The notes below the pieces were generated by a model. That model was not told where the DNA came from. It searched no databases and was given only the letters and a program-made list of their open reading frames with translations. Shown piece after piece: positions 2,512 to 64,000 of a stretch of DNA of 64,000 bases. This DNA is from Mytilinidion resinicola (taxonomy: Eukaryota; Ascomycota; Dothideomycetes; Mytilinidiales; Mytilinidiaceae). Position 1 is the first letter of the stretch. Each line of letters starts with the position of its first letter. The translations under genes were made by a program, and so were the position numbers. The DNA lies in the NCBI RefSeq assembly GCF_010093595.1, contig NW_022985438.1, positions 1 through 64,000 of the forward strand. Direction: 5' to 3'.

Positions 2512-3802
2512 TATTTTTATTATAAATACTATATATAGCTTTAGTACGCGCTACTAAGTTAAACTAGCCTTTAATAATTATAGAATTTTTATATAGGGCT
2601 TTTTACTAGTTATATAGTCGATTAAATCGCGTTTTAAGGCTAAGTATTCGGTTAATAAAGTTCCTTAGCTACTTCTAGCTAACCTAGCTAGCGCTATATT
2701 TAGTAAGTAGTATATTCGCTATATTATATATAGTATTAAAAGTAGGCGCAAACCTATATATATTTAGGTTTAGTATATATTTAATAATTACCTTTTTTTT
2801 AGTTATAGTAAGTTTTTTTAAATTAGGTTTATAATCGCGATATATAGACTTTTTAGCGCATTAGTTGCGTAGTATAGATTTAGGGATATTATATAGTAAT
2901 ATAGTATACTATATACTAGAAATCTATATAAAATTAATAAATAAAATAGTAAAAAAAAGGTTTTTTTTATTATATAGTAAAAAACCAGATAGTAAGCCTA
3001 TATTAGGAAACGGATACACCCTATTCGGGCAATCCGCGCCTTGCTTACAGTTTTTGCGCTTTACCTAACCTAGTAATCGACCTTAACAACCGCTATAAAA
3101 AGCCCTTCCTTCGCCGTTATTTTCTATCCCCTTTTTTAACCTTTTCTTTCTACTTTTATCCCTCTATCTACGCGGCTTTTACTTATACTAACTGCTATTA
3201 TTAGGCTTTAGCAAATCCTTTATAAGGTATTTTTCGAATTCCTACCGCAGCCTAATACTGCACTGCCTTATTTTATCCCTATTATTTATTATATATACTG
3301 CACTATTTAGCTTTATATACCTTTAGCAATTACTAGTACTACTAAATCTAATTCTTAGCTTATATTTATATATATATAGCAGCCCGCCCGCTTCTATTTT
3401 TTTATTTTTTTATATATTTTTATTTTTTATTTTTTACCTTTTACCTTTTTCTATTATATACTTTCCCTTTTTTACTTTTTCTTTTAGATCCCCGCTTATA
3501 TTATATTAGTAGCAGCTAAAGCTAAAAAGGCGAAACTTACTGCCTATTTATATAGCTATTCCCTGCTCCGGACTTACTAATACTAATTTACTATATACTA
3601 CTTTATTCCTTTTTTTAGTAAATAAATATATAGCTTTTATACTATTATTTTATTTCTAATACTTCTATACTGCGCCCCGCTTCTTTAGTTAAAATAGCTA
3701 GGCTAATCCCTTACTTACTACGCTATATCCCCGCTCCTAGCTTCTATTTCTAGCTTTTACTTTTAGTAGCTATAGTGTTTTCGCTAGCCCTATAGTAGTA
3801 GT

Positions 3803-5260: not shown

Positions 5261-6667
5261 TCCTCCTGCAGATTTAAGAAACCTATTTTAACGCCCTTTA
5301 AAGACATATTTTTGGATCAGAGCGCACCTTATAATAATGTCGCCATAAGAAGCCGGCCATCTGCACGCAAGCGGGAGTACGCCTTATTTGCCGATAATCA
5401 CACCTCAAAACTGGCCTTGGAAGACTCCCGTTCAGCAAAGCGGCAGTCAACCCAGCTACAGGCAGAGAGCCTTGCACGTAGTGCTATGTGCACACCAACA
5501 TCGACAACGACGCCGCCGGCGCCAGCGGCCGGCGGCAGCCCTTTCTCGCCTCTCAGAGTCAGCAATCCAAATGCTAGTGGCGGGGACAGTGGCGGCACAG
5601 ACGATGGCGCCGACACCTCCAACCAATCTCGAAGCGACCTCCTTGATTTACAGAATGGCGGTGATGGCGAACAACACGAGGGCGCGATAGAGAAAGACCT
5701 GCTGCATTCCTCAAGACAATCAGTCTCTCCGTCTGAACAAAGACCGCGCGATCAAGACTTCAGTCCGTATTCAGAGGAGGGTGGAGATAACAGCGACGCC
5801 AGCGATGGCGAAGTTGGGAGGAGCGATGAGGACGAACCCAGTCAGGCTGATGACTTTTCAGAGCGCGGCACGTCACAAACCGCTCTTAGACCACGGGATT
5901 GTAGCACAATGCGCACGACGACGTCTCGACAAGTGATCCCGCGCCAATCTCAACACCTGTCTAGGCCTGGAACAGACAGAGTGACTTGGTCTGGCTCCCC
6001 ACAAATATCCCCGCAAATATCCACTCCAAGAGCGACAGCTGTGAATGAACCCAGCATCAATCGTGGACCCAGCGCCAACCAGGCCTACCAGATAGCTGAT
6101 ATTACTCTTCACCCTGTGCCAAAGGCTGTGTCGATTGTAACAGCAACGGTCTGTTGCAAGGAGTCAAAATTGCCTCCAGACCTCATAACGCTTGACACCA
6201 GCATTTTCGGAGAGAGAGGTCACGTCATCCGTATGACCCAGTTATCGCAGGATTCATGGTTGTTACTGGGATGCTGATATGACGACGGTGCATCAGACTC
6301 ACGTCCTCATCGGAGCCGGACAGTGCTTAGTGCAGAGCAGAAGAGCAATTCTTACAGCGAAGCTGCGAATCATGACACAGACCATCAAGACAACCACATG
6401 GGCGAAGAGGATGAGGACGGGGACGAGGATACAGATGAAGACACAACGGAATACAAGCCTCATGCCATAGACCCTAATCCGAGGTTTAAGAGAGGCACAA
6501 TGCGCCTTCCCAAACGAAAGCGAGCAGCGTGGCTGGAGTCGGACGACGAGCGGTTACTCGCGTACAGGAGAAACATGGCCATGGAGTGGAAGGAGATATT
6601 CAAACGCTTCCCAGATCGGACCCCAGGCGCAGTACAGGTACGCTATCACACGCTACAAAAAAAATGA
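5261..6667 (+). CDS. Low-complexity protein with C-terminal SANT/Myb-like motif (5' end damaged)
   Basis: The clear coding stretch runs from about 5312 to a GTATGA donor at 6231. A 66-bp intron (6231-6296; branch GCTGAT, acceptor ATCAG) is predicted, followed by exon 2 to the TGA ending at 6667. Splicing removes an in-frame TGA at 6275 and keeps the frame. The N-terminal ~300 residues are acidic, Ser/Pro/Gln-rich and probably disordered. The last ~50 residues (from KRKRAAWLESDDERLL, then WKEIFKRFPDRTPGAVQVRY) match a SANT/Myb-like helix-turn-helix common in fungal nuclear proteins, suggesting DNA or chromatin binding. No ATG opens the frame: it continues upstream to a TAG at 5258, inside the RIP-coloured edge. 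The true start has probably been lost or lies in a mutated upstream exon, so the gene may be a pseudogene. Confidence 0.6.
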
Positions 6668-8015
6668 CCCATCGCCACAACATCGATGTATGTATCCTCT
6701 TCCCTCCAACGAAATTTCGAGGTGTAGTTGAGTCTGGCTCTCCTATTACCCCCACCTCCCGGCAAAAGAATTCCAGTGCGGATACTGTATCCAGCCAGCC
6801 GTCTGCCAAGGACAACCGGGTGACGACAAGCACTTCCTCACTGCGCGTTCCATCGACCCAAGGTCTACCACTAGAGCTAGAAGGAGCCCCACCATGACCG
6901 CCCAAGTCAAAGCCTTTGACACTCCGAACTCCAACACTGGAAGGACGTGAAAGTCAGGAGAGTGAGTCGCTCAAAGCATCGATCGCCTGTACTTTCAGGA
7001 ACTCTCTGCCTCTTGGACAGCGTTTGTCTTACGAGACCACTCCGGAGACCTGTAACGTACGCTTCGCTGAGGAGATTTCGAGGTGAAAAGAGTTAAGACT
7101 GGCTCTCCTATGCCTCAGCAGGAGGCCGCCGACCATCGCCCTTCGTAAATTCCTTCCTAGGCCGAGCTTTTCCAGTTGACTGCTCTCTGCATACAACTTC
7201 AGACCAAGGTTCCAGTCTTCGCGTCCATTACATCTATTGCTCCCGTCGTGTATACCACACCACCCTTCCTCCTTAATCTCCTTTGGACGATGCCGTGCCC
7301 GTACATTTTCATACTGGAGAGTACGATACAAATATTGAATGTTGGGTGGGATATCTCGTGCTCAGCAAAGTCTGCCTGCGTCACCGCTGGATATACAACC
7401 CTGTCGCCCGCCATCTTCTTTGTGGGGCCGGGGGATCAGCCCGAGATCTTCGAGCCTTCGAGCTGACTCTGGAGCTGGCGGTTGGCGAGGCCGAAATGGC
7501 GCAGTCATCGTCGAGCTTCTTACTTTAGGCGTGCGTCGCCAGTACAGTGAGGGTTAGGATAACTATGGGCGGAGGCGCGGAGGGCGATCTCGACTTCAAC
7601 GATTTCTTCGCATAGCGTAAGTACTTCCTGCCGGGCACGCTGCGAGCTCATGCGTTGTTGCTAAAAGAGAATACTAGTAACGTTCCGGAAATTCCTTTTA
7701 AGACTAAGTTTTTCCTAGTAGACTGCTCTCGGAATACAACTGCTAAAGATATAAGTCACTTATGCATTAGTTGGACAAGTCCGAAGTGGGGGCCAGTCCG
7801 TCGGATGAGACCTCTTCCCTCTTGGTGGCCAGTTCCCTAGGGGGCAGTGTGTCTTAATGCATTTATATCCATGCGGCAATGTTCTGACATTGGAACAGTT
7901 GACGACTACCGGCTAGCGATTGCTAGATTCTCCCCATAATGCTCGCTCCCTTGAGACCAACTGTAATCCAAATTAGAATTCTGGTGGAGCACTAAGAGAT
8001 GATGTACAAGAGCGT
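6668..8015. other. Intergenic, ordinary composition
   Basis: Several short overlapping frames exist on both strands, but none shows a recognisable motif, good start context or convincing splice structure. I see nothing assignable. Confidence 0.5.
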
Positions 8016-10623: not shown

Positions 10624-12653
10624 CTATATTAAGTCAAATGTCAAAAGCTTCTGTTGGCCGTCAACATTTCGGCTAGCAGCCTCGCCCCACATGATTCCAT
10701 GAACATACGCTTCTCCAAGGAGCTCAAACCCTCTCTTCAATCGCCTAGAATGTACCTCTCGCCTTCTTAATACAAATGGAATGTTTCCACCTGAGAGTAC
10801 ACAGACTGTGTCGCGGCACTGCAATACAGCAGGCCCAATGCCTACATAGCCCTTGGAAGTGTAGAACAGCCTTCTTCCCCCACAGGCCTTTCCAGCCGCC
10901 ATGACAAAGTGAACATCATCTTTACGGAAAGACAACTGAGGCAAATGTCGGTCTACATCAGCTGCGTTGTTGCTGCAGAATGCAGCAAAGCCATCAAGAT
11001 GTTCTGATGCATCCTGATCCTGGACTATCACTCGGGTTGTAACAGCTACAACCTAGGATCAACAACTCATACGGTTCAACGGTCACCTACGTACAGACTT
11101 GGAGTTGCTGGCATAGTAGCTGCCTACATGCCTAGCCAGTTACAACTTCTACAGAGAGGGGTTGGGGTACGGTGGCCTACCCTGCCTAATGCTGCCTACT
11201 GCTGCCTCCAATTAGTGCTTCTGCCTATGCATACAGTCACTTCCTACGTAGTATATAGTTTGGCCTTCGGGCCCCCGAAATAAGACAGAGTTCACATCAA
11301 TTTTCAACCTGAGTCTATCATCCCATACCAATCTTTACCTGCCGTCAGGGTCCAGCAACCTACCTTTTCAAGGGGCTCTCCTGTTGGGTAAGGAATAGTT
11401 TTAGAACGCATCTTGGCTATTACTTCGACCAGCGCCGCAGTTTGCTCACCAGGCCTTTCTAACCCAGGAATCACATCCGCCACCTCCACAATAATGTCGA
11501 ATTCAATACCCGAAACACGGAGAACCCCACCCCACCTCCCCTTCCACTTGATTGAATGAGCCGGAAGGCATTCTGAGGCGGTAAATTTTTGGACTTTCGA
11601 ACCAAGTGGCGCCAACGTGTAACCGGTAGAGATATTCCACCTTGGAACCCAGGTTGGTCTCCGGACGCTAGATTGGTGTTGAACAGCGGATAGTACATCA
11701 AGCGTCTGCGTTCGTTTTAACGCATGTCTAGCAACCTTTCGATAGACCGACAGAGTGCGGCACTTTGTGTTGGGCTGCAAAAAGCAGTCTTTATCGGTCG
11801 CATCGATATCCACGGTATGAAACCCTAAGAGTGCGTATATGCGATCTTTTGGTTTCTCGCAATTGAGTTTTCGGGTTACCTGCAATATATACAGGAAGCT
11901 TTCGCGTCGAGAGTCGTTTCTATTGATGGACCACTTGTGGAATAGATACGCATGCAACATGCCAGACTCTGGATTACGCGCCATTTTGCCGCAGTGAAGC
12001 GTCCTTATCGAGGTGGAAGCTAGGCCAACTGTTTCCCATGAAATACTTGCCGCTCCCCAAAGCATTTCTGCAGAGGTTGCCATTGCGATTTCTTGAAAAA
12101 CCCATAGTCTTGAAAACCAGTCCAGACTGTAGAACGCTTCCACTGGGCCCCACCATGACAAGTTTCCGGGGGGAGGGATACCATTGGAGATGCTTCTAAT
12201 ACGATCGAGCGCCAGCTCGGCTTCGTCGGTGGTGTCTTCCCCAAGCCAAACAAGGACACGGGTAGCCTTGTTGTAGATTTCTCCCATAATTTTCATTTGG
12301 TCTGTTATCTCTCCCCGGTCGCTTTGGTTAATGCAGACGGCGTCGGCCCATATTAACCGTTGAGCATCGGGGAGGCGGAGACGGTTGAGGGCATTCATCA
12401 AATTGAGCCGGATTTTGAGAGGCTTCCCACAGCACCACAGGACGCCGCCATCTTGTTTGTCCCATCTGTAGGATAGAGCTTCGTATGATGGTGCTGAATC
12501 AAAGTGGACAATGTTAAGGTGACACGACAAAGGCTGGTCACTTCCTCGACTCGGGTGGATTACTATCAATCTTATGGTCCTTTGGCTTAGAGGTTTGTAC
12601 CGATAGTGGTCCGAATCAAAGCCATTCGTTCTGCAGCGTCTTGCGGGAAGCAT
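10624..12653 (-). CDS. HET-domain (heterokaryon incompatibility) protein
   Basis: Exon 1 runs from the ATG at 12653 to 11339. A donor GTAAAG at 11338 and an acceptor TTGTAG ending at 11046 define a 293-bp intron; exon 2 runs from 11045 to 10624. The joined frame is phase-consistent and gives 578 residues. HET motifs are clear: YEALSYRW (57-64), IWADAVCINQ (101-110) and KATRVLVWLGE (129-139). The C-terminal part contains GRRLFYTSKGYVGIGP and ends with the GEAYVHGIMWGEA block usual in this family. HET domains trigger a cell-death reaction after fusion of unlike hyphae; partners and specificity cannot be read here. The intron is unusually long and holds short GCCTAC-type repeats. The gene appears intact. 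Confidence 0.85.
11150..11235. repeat. Short GCCTAC-type repeats inside the HET gene intron
   Basis: Units of the form (T)GCCTAC(T/C) recur five or more times within about 85 bp. They may explain the intron's length. Confidence 0.5.
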
Positions 12654-13363: not shown

Positions 13364-13773
13364 TGTCACGATAGCGCTACACGCGAGAGGTCGAGGGCTC
13401 AAAGAGGAGCGTTGATTAGGTGCTATGTACAATGCTACGTGGAGAATCAAGACGTTGTGTAAGGGACAGGAAGACGGGAGACGGGCCACCGGATATAAGG
13501 GCGTGGCCGAGCGCGTGGCGTACGGCCTCTATGCCGTTTCGGCGCGTGGCACGCGTGTACGCGAGGTCCTTACCAGATCAGGTGATAGGAAAAGGGGGCA
13601 GCCGGTAGGTGGCTGGAGCGGGACAGGATAGGAAGCGGAAGCGAGACGGGAGCGGAGCAGGGCAGGCAGGGCAGGAGGCCGGCCAGCGGTAGTAGGCCGG
13701 TGCAGATTGCTGGAGTTGTAGCAATCTGCGGCAGAATTTCGGTAGGTAGGGTGTCGCGGTCGATACCGTGACA
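13364..13773 (-). repeat. Solo LTR, intact, with GGCGC target duplication
   Basis: The 410-bp unit starts TGTCACGATAGCG and ends ATACCGTGACA, giving inverted termini TGTCACG/CGTGACA. It is flanked on both sides by the 5-bp duplication GGCGC (13359-13363 and 13774-13778). It is the inverse of the LTRs at 955 and 63294. No internal retrotransposon sequence adjoins it, so it arose by LTR-LTR recombination. It is GC-rich and shows little sign of RIP. The short open frames inside it are not genes. Confidence 0.93.
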
Positions 13774-59845: not shown

Positions 59846-61253
59846 ACTATAACTTTCTTAAAAAAGGTCTAGTATTTGCACTCGACTATAACCTATATAT
59901 ATAACTAAAATATAGTCGAGATAATAGTAAATCCGCCTTTTCCTTTATTTTAGAAGCGATATTTACTTATAGTTATAAAATAGGTATATAGATTATATAA
60001 TTACTATATAGAACGCTAGCGGCTAATACAGCGCTAGCGACCTATATTAGGCCGCTCCGCTTTTACCTTTTTTTTTTTTATATTACTACTTCTATAGTAT
60101 AGTAATATAACTGTTTCTAATTGCTATTTACCTATTAAGCGAGTTCTTATAGCTGTAAATAGAACAATTAATAGTATAATTAACGTCCCCTAGCGGAAAA
60201 CCCCCTGTACCGGAATAAATCTATTATTTAGGTATTCTAACTCTTTTCCTTATAATCCTATTAAATTATAGTTAGTATATTATAATTTCTGCCTAGGAAA
60301 CTAGTATATAGCTAAAAAAATACAACGCTTTTAATTATACTATCGATTATTTCTTTTAGAGCTATAATAGAATTCGGTTATACTATAAAAGAAGACTTTC
60401 TATATATTAGGCGTAAAGGCGATAATATAAATATAATTTTTAGGTATAAGGTATTCTAAATATTTAGGAGTAGCTATAGTATATAACTTATATAGAACTA
60501 TAGAAGATCTTAATATATATACTACCTTAAATAATCCGACGGCGTTTTAGCTGCTGATTTTAGAGGGTTATAATGCCGTTTTCTAAGGCTAACTTGCTAT
60601 AAAACCTCCCTAACCGCGCCGGCACGGGCACGAGCGCACGTCCCCCTCGGGTTTCCTCTATTAGTTAGCGTAGGCGCCAACAGTTAAAGGGATTCTAGAG
60701 CCCGTTTTATATCCTAAACGCAGCGGCACGCCTATAACCTTAGTCTATTCTTAACGCCCGCATTATATTAACCCAAACTAAGGCCGCTCTGCCTGCGGCG
60801 TACTTAAACCCTTCTGCTCTTTGTTAGCAATAGATCCGCGCACAAGGCCCGCTCTTTCTTATCTTTCCTCCGCTCTCTCTTATTTTTCCTCCACCTAAAG
60901 CCGCGACTTCAGGACATCGCGCCCGTTTTAAACACACGCCGCACTGCTCGTTAACCAACCCTTAGAACTCCTACCCTTACGGCGAAGTAGCACCCGTACT
61001 CTAACCTTCGGGTTATAGGCTCTGCCCCTGTAAGCTTAGGATATACAGCCTCTCCACGCGAAAAGGCCGTCTAGCCTCCTAATCGGCAGTGGCACGAGTA
61101 ACTATAAGGCCTTTTTGCACGCTATTAGGAAGCAAAAAGTGTTTAGACAGCATCCGAAGCCGAGAATACTCGGCTTACCGCTATAACAGAAACCTGGTTA
61201 CCGTTTACCACCACCTTATTTAACACCGCTCTGCTACTACAGCAGATTAGCGT
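59846..61253. other. TA-rich block passing into less mutated DNA upstream of the recombinase relic
   Basis: The first ~700 bp are RIP-like. From about 60600 to 61250 CG dinucleotides are much more frequent and strings such as GGCACGGGCACGAGCGCACG survive. No open frame is recognised. It is the 5' flank of the recombinase relic. Confidence 0.5.
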
Positions 61254-61411
61254 CTTCCTTTATTAAGCTCTTTTATTAAGCTCTTAGTTAAGCTCTTCCT
61301 TTATTAATATCTACCTTTATTAACCTCTACTTTTATTAACCTCTATTATTATCGACCTTTATTAACCTTTATTAACCTCTACCTTTATTAACCTCTACCT
61401 TTATCGACCTC
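61254..61411 (+). repeat. Minisatellite of ~15-bp CCTTTATTAACCTCTA units
   Basis: About ten imperfect units, the first few degenerate (TTATTAAGCTCT), lie 50-100 bp upstream of the start of the DUF3435-type relic. Confidence 0.85.
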
Positions 61412-61454
61412 TATATACTAATATACGCTATTATCTATTAGTTAACAATTTGTC

Positions 61455-63293
61455 TAAGGCGAGCAAGTATACGGAGTCTAATATAGATAATAGTATAGTG
61501 TCGGATACTAATCTAACCGATATTAATACTTATACTAATAAGGACAATAAGTATAACAAGCAATACGAAGGTATAGAGGATAGAGTATAGCTATTTTCTA
61601 ATAAAAACTATCCGCCTAAGTACTACCTCTAATAGCTGGAAATATTTAATAATTAAGAGTATATAAAAAAGGATTATAAGGACGGTACTACTCGCCTGCT
61701 AGATTATATAGAAAATTAGTAGAATTAGTAGGTTACTAGTTTCTATACTCTAGTATTAACCTGCGCTGGACTTAAGAATATAACGCTAATATAGTATAAA
61801 TACTAGATATACTTTAGAAAAAACAACTTCTATTCCTATATAACTGTGTCCGTCCGTATACTATATACTTTCTTTAACTAGCTACTTAGTTAGCGCTAAG
61901 GGAAGAAAGAAAGGAAACGTTAGGGTACTAAGTATACTAGCTCCCTTAGAATATACTGGAAGGTATATCGCCTGGTATATAAAAGAGCAACTAGTAGTAA
62001 AATAGATAGTAAAATAAACCGGAGCATATATAAGGTACTAAGAAAACTAGCTAAAAAGTATAACCTAAAAAAGGTAGGGTAAGATAAGGCCTGTATATAT
62101 ATAGAGGATTAGACTAAAGTACTATAAATAAACCTTATAATAACTAAAAAAAGATATTTTTATAAATAGTATAGGATATAAGCCTAGATCTACTTATAGC
62201 TTAGTAGGTTTACAGCAAATCGGCTATAAGCTATTCTTAGGCTCTGCTATTAATATATATAGGTTACCCTACTCCGGGATCTAAAAGGGGGGCCTTATCG
62301 GGTATTACTAGAGTTTACCTTTAAATTTATAAAGGAGTTCCTTAGGATAAAAGATATATAAGTCTATAAGTCTTCCTGCTAATATCTATATATTTTTAAG
62401 GAAATACTAATTTTAGCAAGGAATACCTTCCCTTTCCCTAAAATTATCTATAATAAATCCCTTATCTTTAGTCTATATATTTCCTTTCTTAAAGTGCTTT
62501 TCCGTAATTAGGTGTTTACAGCATATAATCTAATATCCGAAAAGGAATTAAGCAGGCTCTATATTCTACTAGGGCGCAATAAGCTACTATTACGCCTTAA
62601 TAGTAAATTAGATAATATTCTAGTACTTCGGCAACCTATAAAAACCCCGAACGGCTAGGCTATTTCTTCTAATTAGCCTCTTTAGTACTCCACGTTGCTG
62701 CCTTAGATTAGAGTACTAGAAGAGATTATAGGGTTTACCTAAATTACCTATCCCTATTTATTAAGATATAATAAAGGGAAGGCCTTTAATAAAAATAGTA
62801 AGCTTAGCCTAAGCTATTATTAGGAAGATATAGAATTAATATAATATATAGGTAATATTAGCAAGGCTATATAAAACCTTATAATAACGCACCGCGATAT
62901 CCGGACGTTTTTAAAACACTATCTTTTACGAAAGATTACTATAGATATATAAGCTATTATATAAGGTATTTAGCCCTAAAATATAATAATATAAGCAGCT
63001 TATACTATAAGTCGTTTAATTAATACCCGACGGCTATAACAGCTTACTCCGGAACAATCTATATTAGTAAACAATTATCCTGCCGTTTAATACCTGCTCT
63101 AAAAACAAAAGAAACTTAAATATACCTTTTAAAATGCTATAAAACATCTAAAGTATAAAGAGCTTAGTTGCAAAATTAATTAGGAAAGGCAGCGCCTGCG
63201 AGATGCCCTTCTTTAGGATATTAAAGAACGTTAGGAGTATAAGCAACCTGTGCGTGATGTTAAGCAGCAACTTGCCGGTATTAAAGTTAAAAC
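61455..63293 (+). pseudogene. DUF3435-type tyrosine recombinase (Starship captain family) relic
   Basis: A single plus-strand frame, broken only by TAG/TAA at former CAG/CAA/TGG sites, covers about 610 codons from a decayed start near 61460. Family landmarks appear in order. An early core-binding segment reads ILYTFFN, then SSLRIYWKVYRLVY. The first arginine box is FTANRL.AILRL near 62220. FPFPKIIYNKSLIFSLYIS spans about 62430-62490. A second box is YPYLLRYNKGKAF near 62760. The catalytic block HRDIRTFLKHYLLRK (62890-62935) has the expected His, Arg and Tyr. The end reads ERQRLRDALL and VRDVKQQLAG. DUF3435 proteins are the tyrosine recombinases that mobilise giant fungal Starship elements, though many copies are solitary. 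The LTR starting at 63294 cuts off the C-terminus. Confidence 0.8.
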
Positions 63294-63703
63294 TGTCACG
63301 GTATCGACCGCGACACCCTACCTACCGAAATTCTGCCGCAGATTGCTACAACTCCAGCAATCTGCACCGGCCTACTACCGTTGGCCGGCCTCCTGCTCTG
63401 CCTGCCCTGCTCCGCTCCCGTCTCGCTTCCGCTTCCTATCCTGTCCCGCTCCAGCCACCTACCGGCTGCCCCCTTTTCCTATCACCTGATCTGGTAAGGA
63501 CCTCGCGTACACGCATGCCACGCGCCGAAACGGCATAGAGGCCGTACGCCACGCGCTCGGCCACGCCCTTATATCCGGTGGCCCGTCTCCCGTCTTCCTG
63601 TCCCTTACACAACGTCTTAATTCTCCACGTAGCATTGTATATAGCACCTAATTAACGCTCCTTTTTAAGCCCTCGACCTCTCGCGTGTAGCGCTATCGTG
63701 ACA
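63294..63703 (+). repeat. LTR, 410-bp family, largely unmutated; probably a 5' LTR
   Basis: It starts TGTCACGGTATCGACC and ends GCGCTATCGTGACA, and is the reverse complement of the solo LTR at 13364-13773 with few differences. The bases next to it are not a duplication (AAAAC versus CTAAT). A gag-like frame follows, so it is best read as the 5' LTR of an element running off the window. Frames inside it are not genes. Confidence 0.85.
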
Positions 63704-64000
63704 CTAATACTATAACTAGGTTGCTTCCTAGCCGCTCTATTCCACCTTTGAAAAGCTTATTTAGCATGCCTAATAATACCCCCTCTACTAGCCCTTTTGC
63801 TATTAGCGCCTCCCTAAACCTAAATACTACTACTGCCAGCTATATCCCGCCTAACCTAGCCTTGCCGCTGTAGAGTAGCAACCTCTAGTCCTAGAATACT
63901 AACCTAGGCCGGGATAATTACTTCTAGCTTTTACTAGAAATAATAACTATACTCCTAGGTTCTAGAATAGCTATAATATAGCAGTTATTAAAGCCTTTAA
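63704..64000 (+). pseudogene. Start of a retrotransposon internal region (gag-like), RIP-mutated, cut by the window end
   Basis: The ATG at about 63759 opens MPNNTPSTSPFAIS, then after RIP-type TAGs NTNLGRDNYF and LLEIITILLGSR. This resembles the N-terminus of copia-type gag (L-x-G-x-N-Y-x-x-W). A copia assignment is tentative. The mutated body contrasts with the clean LTR beside it. Confidence 0.45.

Follow-up and report, generated by a model that had tools for sequence, protein, structure and literature searches.

Does the broken DUF3435 recombinase gene near the right end of the stretch studied here mark the edge of a dead Starship, or is it a lone relic? The stretch (hereafter the window) is the first 64,000 bp of contig C2 (C2:1-64000) in genome G000 of Mytilinidion resinicola (Dothideomycetes, Mytilinidiales), an assembly of 47,124,854 bases on 44 contigs, and all copy comparisons were made inside this one genome. 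We consider it very likely that the stretch holds the left (captain) edge of a derelict Starship. A reading made from the letters of the window alone (the sequence-only reading) had proposed a dead Starship edge with its body to the right and had given equal standing to a lone relic. The first proposal is supported by the left terminus at 60520, by a complete sister element of 58,244 bp on C1, by cargo that extends as far as C2:74787 and by the presence at C2:84293 of a right terminus of the family. The empty site of the C1 element and the cargo beyond the window favour a Starship edge over the second. We found no literature linking M. resinicola to Starships.

Captain gene and left terminus

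A six-frame profile search placed two matches to PF11917 (DUF3435) on the plus strand, the first part of the domain at 62101-62802 (132 bits) and the second at 62851-63327 (87.4 bits), of which 62851-63293, with the motif FLKHYLLR, belongs to the captain. The captain frame (61255, plus strand) contains this motif, and when it was read with X at the stops, the match reached 214 bits (E-value 4.8e-63). The Tyr of FLKHYLLR stands in a column with Tyr in 37 of 38 homologues and a gap in the remaining one. The sequence-only reading had recognised a DUF3435 recombinase here from conserved boxes that include this motif and its Tyr and had suggested a profile search of the frame, and the significant match agrees with it. 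The same six-frame search found at least 40 DUF3435 matches across the genome. A profile search of PDB sequences gave weak matches only, with XerA as the best recombinase (E-value 0.14), and Foldseek returned nothing at an E-value of 0.001 or below, the best match being Cre (1.7e-3).

The captain pseudogene occupies 61423-63293 (plus strand). Visual comparison with the C1 copy, together with the column of Met residues in the homologues, put its start at about 61423, and the start codon itself is altered in the window copy. The best copies are homologous up to 63290-63293, and the captain sequence ends at 63293. The C1 captain has about 165 further residues past this break point, among them a C2H2-like motif, and it is this C-terminal, zinc-finger-like part that the window copy lacks.

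The left edge of the element lies at 60520, where the GC content jumps from 0.30 to 0.49. The flank to its left (59900-60519, plus strand) is a repeat mutated by repeat-induced point mutation (RIP), here called repeat A, which was the host of the insertion. Repeat A is 86% identical to C12:1131005-1131637 over the whole query and 88% to C10:644497-644963 over bases 164-620 of the query; both matches end at the identical base and then run on uninterrupted with TACTAAG. Where it is uninterrupted, the repeat reads TACTAAGTATAAG, and an empty site at 60519 would read AATATATA-TACTAAG. Eight copies of the family, aligned by eye, share the start TACTACCTTAAA...GACGGCG with some variation.

The junctions of the family carry a short repeat of the target site. 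TAC stands at 60520-60522 (plus strand) in the window and at the left edge of six of the eight copies viewed. On the right side, the last 490 bases of the C1 element gave 13 right-terminus matches, four of which stop short of the terminus; in the nine viewed, TAC follows the terminus in eight (in C22 and C8 once the match had been lengthened by 3 and 10 bases, respectively) and is replaced by TAG in C29. The termini form an imperfect inverted repeat, whose left arm was placed at 60528-60543 (plus strand) by comparison with the right end. In C1, 14 of 16 bases match, two of them within TAC, a score reached by 4 of 2000 shuffles, and between the C2 ends 13 of 16 match. Terminal inverted repeats are frequent in Starships without being universal.

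Between the edge and the gene lies a conserved 5' leader (60520-61254, plus strand), delimited by its GC content of 0.49 against 0.30 in the flank and by the places in the genome that match the initial 361 bases of the C1 copy. There are ten such matches; one covers just 96 bases, and the other nine, among them the window, are near full length. Each of the nine long left termini has a DUF3435 match 1-2 kb downstream. At the gene start, Tandem Repeats Finder detected arrays with periods of 12 to 52 bp at 61253-61414 (plus strand), including a 52-bp array at 61313-61414 with 90% matches. A related array stands at the same place in C1, indicating that the minisatellite belongs to the leader of the element. 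With the edge at 60520, the captain begins at about 61423 on the plus strand and points inward. The sequence-only reading had thus correctly seen a minisatellite upstream of the gene and had predicted an element edge within 59.9-61.25 kb, which contains the terminus. It had also described this interval as less mutated, which holds for the leader and fails for the flank left of 60520.

RIP mutation of the captain

The window captain has been wrecked by RIP, and its sister in C1 is unmutated. Between 60520 and 63293, the window differs from C1 at 444 of 2760 aligned positions. The differences comprise 433 C>T or G>A changes, 7 reverse transitions and 4 transversions, so that 11 in 2760 are not of the RIP type. 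With the RIP-type changes set aside, the window captain is thus almost the same as that of the C1 element. By dinucleotide, the changed C numbered 129 of 193 in CpA, 64 of 173 in CpG, 18 of 223 in CpT and 8 of 207 in CpC, indicating a RIP bias towards CpA that reaches CpG. The same bias was seen in other copies (459 of 468 differences in C7; 321 of 364 in C4). The composite RIP index was 1.31 in the captain, 1.07 at 63.7-69.0 kb and -0.26 to -0.63 from 69 to 84.3 kb.

Within 62047-63291, the frame has 33 in-frame stops, all of which the sequence-only reading had attributed to transitions. This explanation stands for 30, which derive from CAA, CAG, CGA, CGG or TGG codons of C1 by C>T or G>A. 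It does not apply to the other three, which C1 also has and which lie in stretches that look like introns by eye (GTAAGT and GTAAGC donors). The C1 captain shows no RIP. Of the C1 element, the first 16 kb and the last 2.7 kb were read, and the in-frame stops met in the captain there fall in likely introns.

Sister elements in the genome

The sister on C1 is a complete, cleanly inserted element, as determined by comparison with empty sites within the genome. Its left flank (C1:2165600-2166935) is a high-copy repeat, and all 40 rows listed among 94 candidates, C1 included, reach within five bases of the insertion point. When the part beyond the insertion point was taken from uninterrupted copies on C4 and C20, its best non-self match, C1:2225180-2226515, began a single base away from the junction. 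The C1 copy is therefore flanked by both halves of one target, and the element spans C1:2166936-2225179 (58,244 bp), with TAC at both junctions. From its copy number and sequence, we read the target as a retrotransposon. The length of the C1 element and the other genes in it indicate a cargo-carrying family and not a unit of gene size. On C22, a right terminus at 385008 and a left terminus at 468348 stand in the correct orientation about 83.3 kb apart, and C22:385008-468348 is a third Starship of the family.

Cargo and the right end on C2

In the window, a long terminal repeat (LTR) at 63294-63703 separates the captain from the start of the surviving cargo (63704-64000, plus strand). The latter is part of a gene for a Zn2Cys6/C2H2 factor, 91% to C7, 86% to C31 and 76% to C1, and its C1 counterpart is an open reading frame with Zn2Cys6 and weak C2H2 matches. 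We had also considered C2:63704 to 69 kb as the body of an LTR retrotransposon; this candidate was rejected, the same sequence being unbroken at this point in C7, C31 and C1, where in C1 it forms the Zn2Cys6/C2H2 gene. The sequence-only reading had suggested following the contig to the right, and there the cargo runs past the window end, with C7 matching as far as C2:74787. On the minus strand, which also holds the captain of that contig, C7:1670976 to 1660033 is 87-91% identical to C2:63703-70500 and 83-84% to C2:74001-74787. The intervening C2:70501-74000 probably corresponds as well, its spacing being 3.5 kb on both contigs. A Myb-like match at C7:1662100-1662663 falls at the position corresponding to that on C2.

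Open reading frames of at least 160 amino acids were searched per 10-kb piece in C2:63704-84293. Ten were found, five with Pfam matches, besides the broken Zn2Cys6/C2H2 gene at the left: Myb-like at 72151-72705 and 80143-80856, APH at 73502-73999 and PDDEXK_12 at 77770-78312 (all on the minus strand), and DUF7770 at 75128-75724. A protein search of the genome gave Myb-like matches on C2 at 72151-72720 and 80143-80856. The right terminus of the family at C2:84293 is 94% to C1 over 482 bases and 89-96% by piece over 2.68 kb.

Several observations weigh against a simple derelict Starship on C2. The outer flanks, repeat A on the left and another repeat, repeat B, on the right, are not halves of one target. 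Over the right 2.68 kb, C2 differs from C1 by 191 differences of mixed type, of which 94 in 2647 positions are not of the RIP type. A misassembly at repeats is possible as the source of the C2 arrangement. Across the family, only three of the nine long left termini (C1, C2 and C22) have, no more than 100 kb away, a right terminus placed and oriented as expected, ten of the 13 right-terminus matches are unpaired, and no right terminus was found in C7:1655601-1660600, where C7 enters repeats. DUF3723 was absent among the matches within C2:60520-84293 (ferric reductase and NLR genes were not sought), and none of the 25 patatin matches in the genome lies inside the C1 or C2 elements, for which patatin was dropped as a Starship marker. 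DUF3723 and patatin genes are frequent companions in Starships and not required. The genome has 20 DUF3723 matches, grouped into nine loci. Four of these (on C5, C11, C13 and C17) are found inward of a DUF3435 match at a distance of 6-36 kb, one on C12 lies 22 kb on the wrong side of one, and four have no DUF3435 nearby.

The two C2 ends differ in history, as their divergence from C1 is unequal (non-RIP differences at 11 of 2760 positions on the left and 94 of 2647 on the right, Fisher p 9e-19). Based on the different flank repeats, this unlike divergence and the two Myb-like genes, we favour, with less certainty, a fusion in which the right terminus at 84293 would have come from a second Starship. 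Alternatively, C2:60520-84293 may be a single Starship of 23,774 bp whose ends belong together and whose right flank was later replaced by a rearrangement. The C2 termini stand in the correct order and orientation, no family terminus motif was found between them, and the length lies within the range of 15 to about 700 kb given in a passage of PMC12134995. A search for a family right terminus near 75 kb, by the first Myb-like gene, also found none at up to 8 mismatches. However, repeat B, which reads AATTAT-TACTAAATTATAG where it is uninterrupted on C4 and C28, is broken exactly at TAC, and so is repeat A, as with separate insertions. A single element would also have to hold both Myb-like genes (72151 and 80143) and ends of unlike divergence. 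We consider a single Starship the less probable arrangement, albeit one with a real chance.

LTR junction at 63294

The fusion would concern the far end of the element, and the LTR at 63294-63703 (plus strand) concerns its interior. This solo LTR is 410 bp long (TGTCAC...GTGACA), with the 5-bp flanks AAAAC on the left and CTAAT on the right. To its left stands native captain sequence, which in C1 and C7 reads GTTAAAAC-CGATAT across the break point. To its right stands native sequence that runs unbroken through C7, C31 and C1. The C7 equivalent of the captain break point is C7:1731354, about 60.4 kb from the counterpart of the cargo gene on that contig. Other copies of the LTR were seen on C2: a solo LTR at 13364-13773 (minus strand), 98% identical and flanked on either side by GCGCC, one at 962-1376 that is more diverged (81%) and one at C2:86056-86458 (97%).

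A single LTR insertion leaves equal flanks, as at 13364-13773, and the flanks AAAAC and CTAAT are unlike. Accordingly, the LTR at 63294 is best read, from these junctions, as the scar of recombination between two LTRs, which would have deleted the interior and the C-terminal tail of the captain. The sequence-only reading had the captain ended by an LTR at 63294; the LTR is present, and in place of a simple insertion it joins sequences that lie apart elsewhere. We consider it improbable that one LTR was inserted into the captain and the tail was lost separately. Just one LTR remains, and a solo LTR of the same family does exist at 13364-13773, but the flanks at 63294 are unequal where that copy has GCGCC twice, and each flank is native captain or cargo-gene sequence up to the break.

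The course of events can be proposed as follows. An element of the family was inserted into the AT-rich repeat A, with its left terminus at 60520, and its captain, when alive, would have moved it as a tyrosine recombinase into targets containing TAC. Recombination would have taken place between an LTR copy within the captain and another within the cargo gene, with the loss of about 60 kb if the ancestor was C7-like. The captain is now tied through one unlike-flanked LTR to a cargo gene that is unbroken in C1, C7 and C31. The C7-matching cargo continues to C2:74787, and the family right terminus at C2:84293 would, less surely, derive from a second Starship fused to the first.

It is highly improbable that the locus is a lone DUF3435 gene, in a unit of gene size or like a Crypton, some 3.8 kb long, that multiplied on its own and underwent RIP: the C1, C7 and C4 copies do have just about 3.8 kb in common at the left end before they diverge, six of the nine long left termini are without a paired right terminus, and "solo" DUF3435 genes are said in PMC12134995 to be commoner than captains, but the two halves of one retrotransposon bound the C1 copy at 58,244 bp, an empty site that rules out such a unit for C1, and the same right terminus stands in correct order and orientation to the left terminus on C2 and C22.

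Right-edge Myb-like gene and other features of the window

The window holds a second relic of the family at its opposite end from the captain. A right terminus at 2980-3164 (minus strand; 76% to the C1 terminus and followed by TAC) belongs to a separate relic with its body to the right and an associated region at 5593-7111; C2 yielded neither a left terminus nor a captain for it. A Myb-like gene (5948-6664, plus strand) lies 3 kb inside this terminus, with 72% protein identity to the gene at C2:80143-80856, which in turn lies 3.4 kb inside the terminus at 84293.

The Myb-like protein has 28 matches in the genome, including C1:2221043-2221756. Eight right-terminus matches of the 13 (C1, C2:84293, C2:2980, C22:385008, C22:55255, C8, C10 and C4) are accompanied by a Myb-like gene 3.0-8.4 kb further in, on the inward strand in every case. 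The termini on C5, C6, C29, C35 and C7 have none inside, and C6 has one 1 kb outside. These pairs of gene and terminus may be co-inherited blocks and not independent events. It is rather doubtful that, as a general scheme, a captain on the left and an inward Myb-like gene on the right bracket the family, the latter possibly marking or binding the right end, with C2 as a fused composite. In Starship software, a Myb class figures among the genes related to Starships. No literature joining Starship, captain, DUF3435 and Myb was found; among the matches listed for Starship, Myb and DUF3723, no transposon work with the word Myb was found, and the part checked of the literature matched by SANT contained neither SANT nor Myb as a whole word. 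Elsewhere in the window, a HET-domain gene lies at 11304-12653 (minus strand; 92.8 bits) inside a GC-rich island and may or may not be cargo of the second relic.

Comparison with known systems

In summary, one fungus holds a bounded family, with an unmutated 58-kb Starship that has its empty site in the same genome and RIP-mutated siblings that share its captain. From the scar it can be seen how recombination between LTRs can hollow out a Starship, beginning at the captain and moving inward. Similar scars could account for the "solo" look of many DUF3435 genes and for far ends that are hard to find, and the recurring Myb-like gene at the right edge is a handle for locating right ends.

The family resembles the Starships of Pezizomycotina, with their captains of the DUF3435 superfamily, in its captain at the 5' edge pointing inward, its short direct repeats, its imperfect inverted termini and its cargo. 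Paired termini stand 58.2 kb (C1, clean in its retrotransposon), 83.3 kb (C22) and 23.8 kb (C2) apart. In contrast to live Starships, the window copy has a captain riddled with stops and without its C-terminal part, a deleted interior and a right end that is possibly foreign. Starships and Cryptons share a tyrosine recombinase and a supposed cut-and-paste movement, and variable cargo is described for Starships only in the relevant passage of PMC12134995; unlike Cryptons, the C1 element carries other genes over its 58,244 bp.

In terms of target sites, passages of PMC12257634 give ATTAC and TTTACT as direct repeats of Phoenix-family Starships, and passages of PMC12153272 give the target core TTACTA for Janus of Aspergillus fumigatus, a Phoenix-family element, and TTAC for Hephaestus. 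Six of the nine right junctions viewed here read TTTACTA, in which TT is the element end and TACTA the flank. This resemblance is only a lead towards placing the family in Phoenix, and the TTAC of Hephaestus is similar.

Derelict Starships are a known kind of element; the locus described here adds an unusually full anatomy, a deletion scar and a possible fusion. RIP-mutated examples are Prometheus in Paecilomyces (PMC11623301) and Frontier and Limos (PMC12257634); cargo swapping among Starships (PMC11623301) and RIP and Starships in Verticillium (PMC12289983) have also been described. Like Prometheus, Frontier and Limos, the captain region of the window was changed by C>T and G>A. Unlike them, it shares its assembly with an unmutated sister as well as with siblings altered by RIP, and the loss of its interior is marked by an LTR scar.
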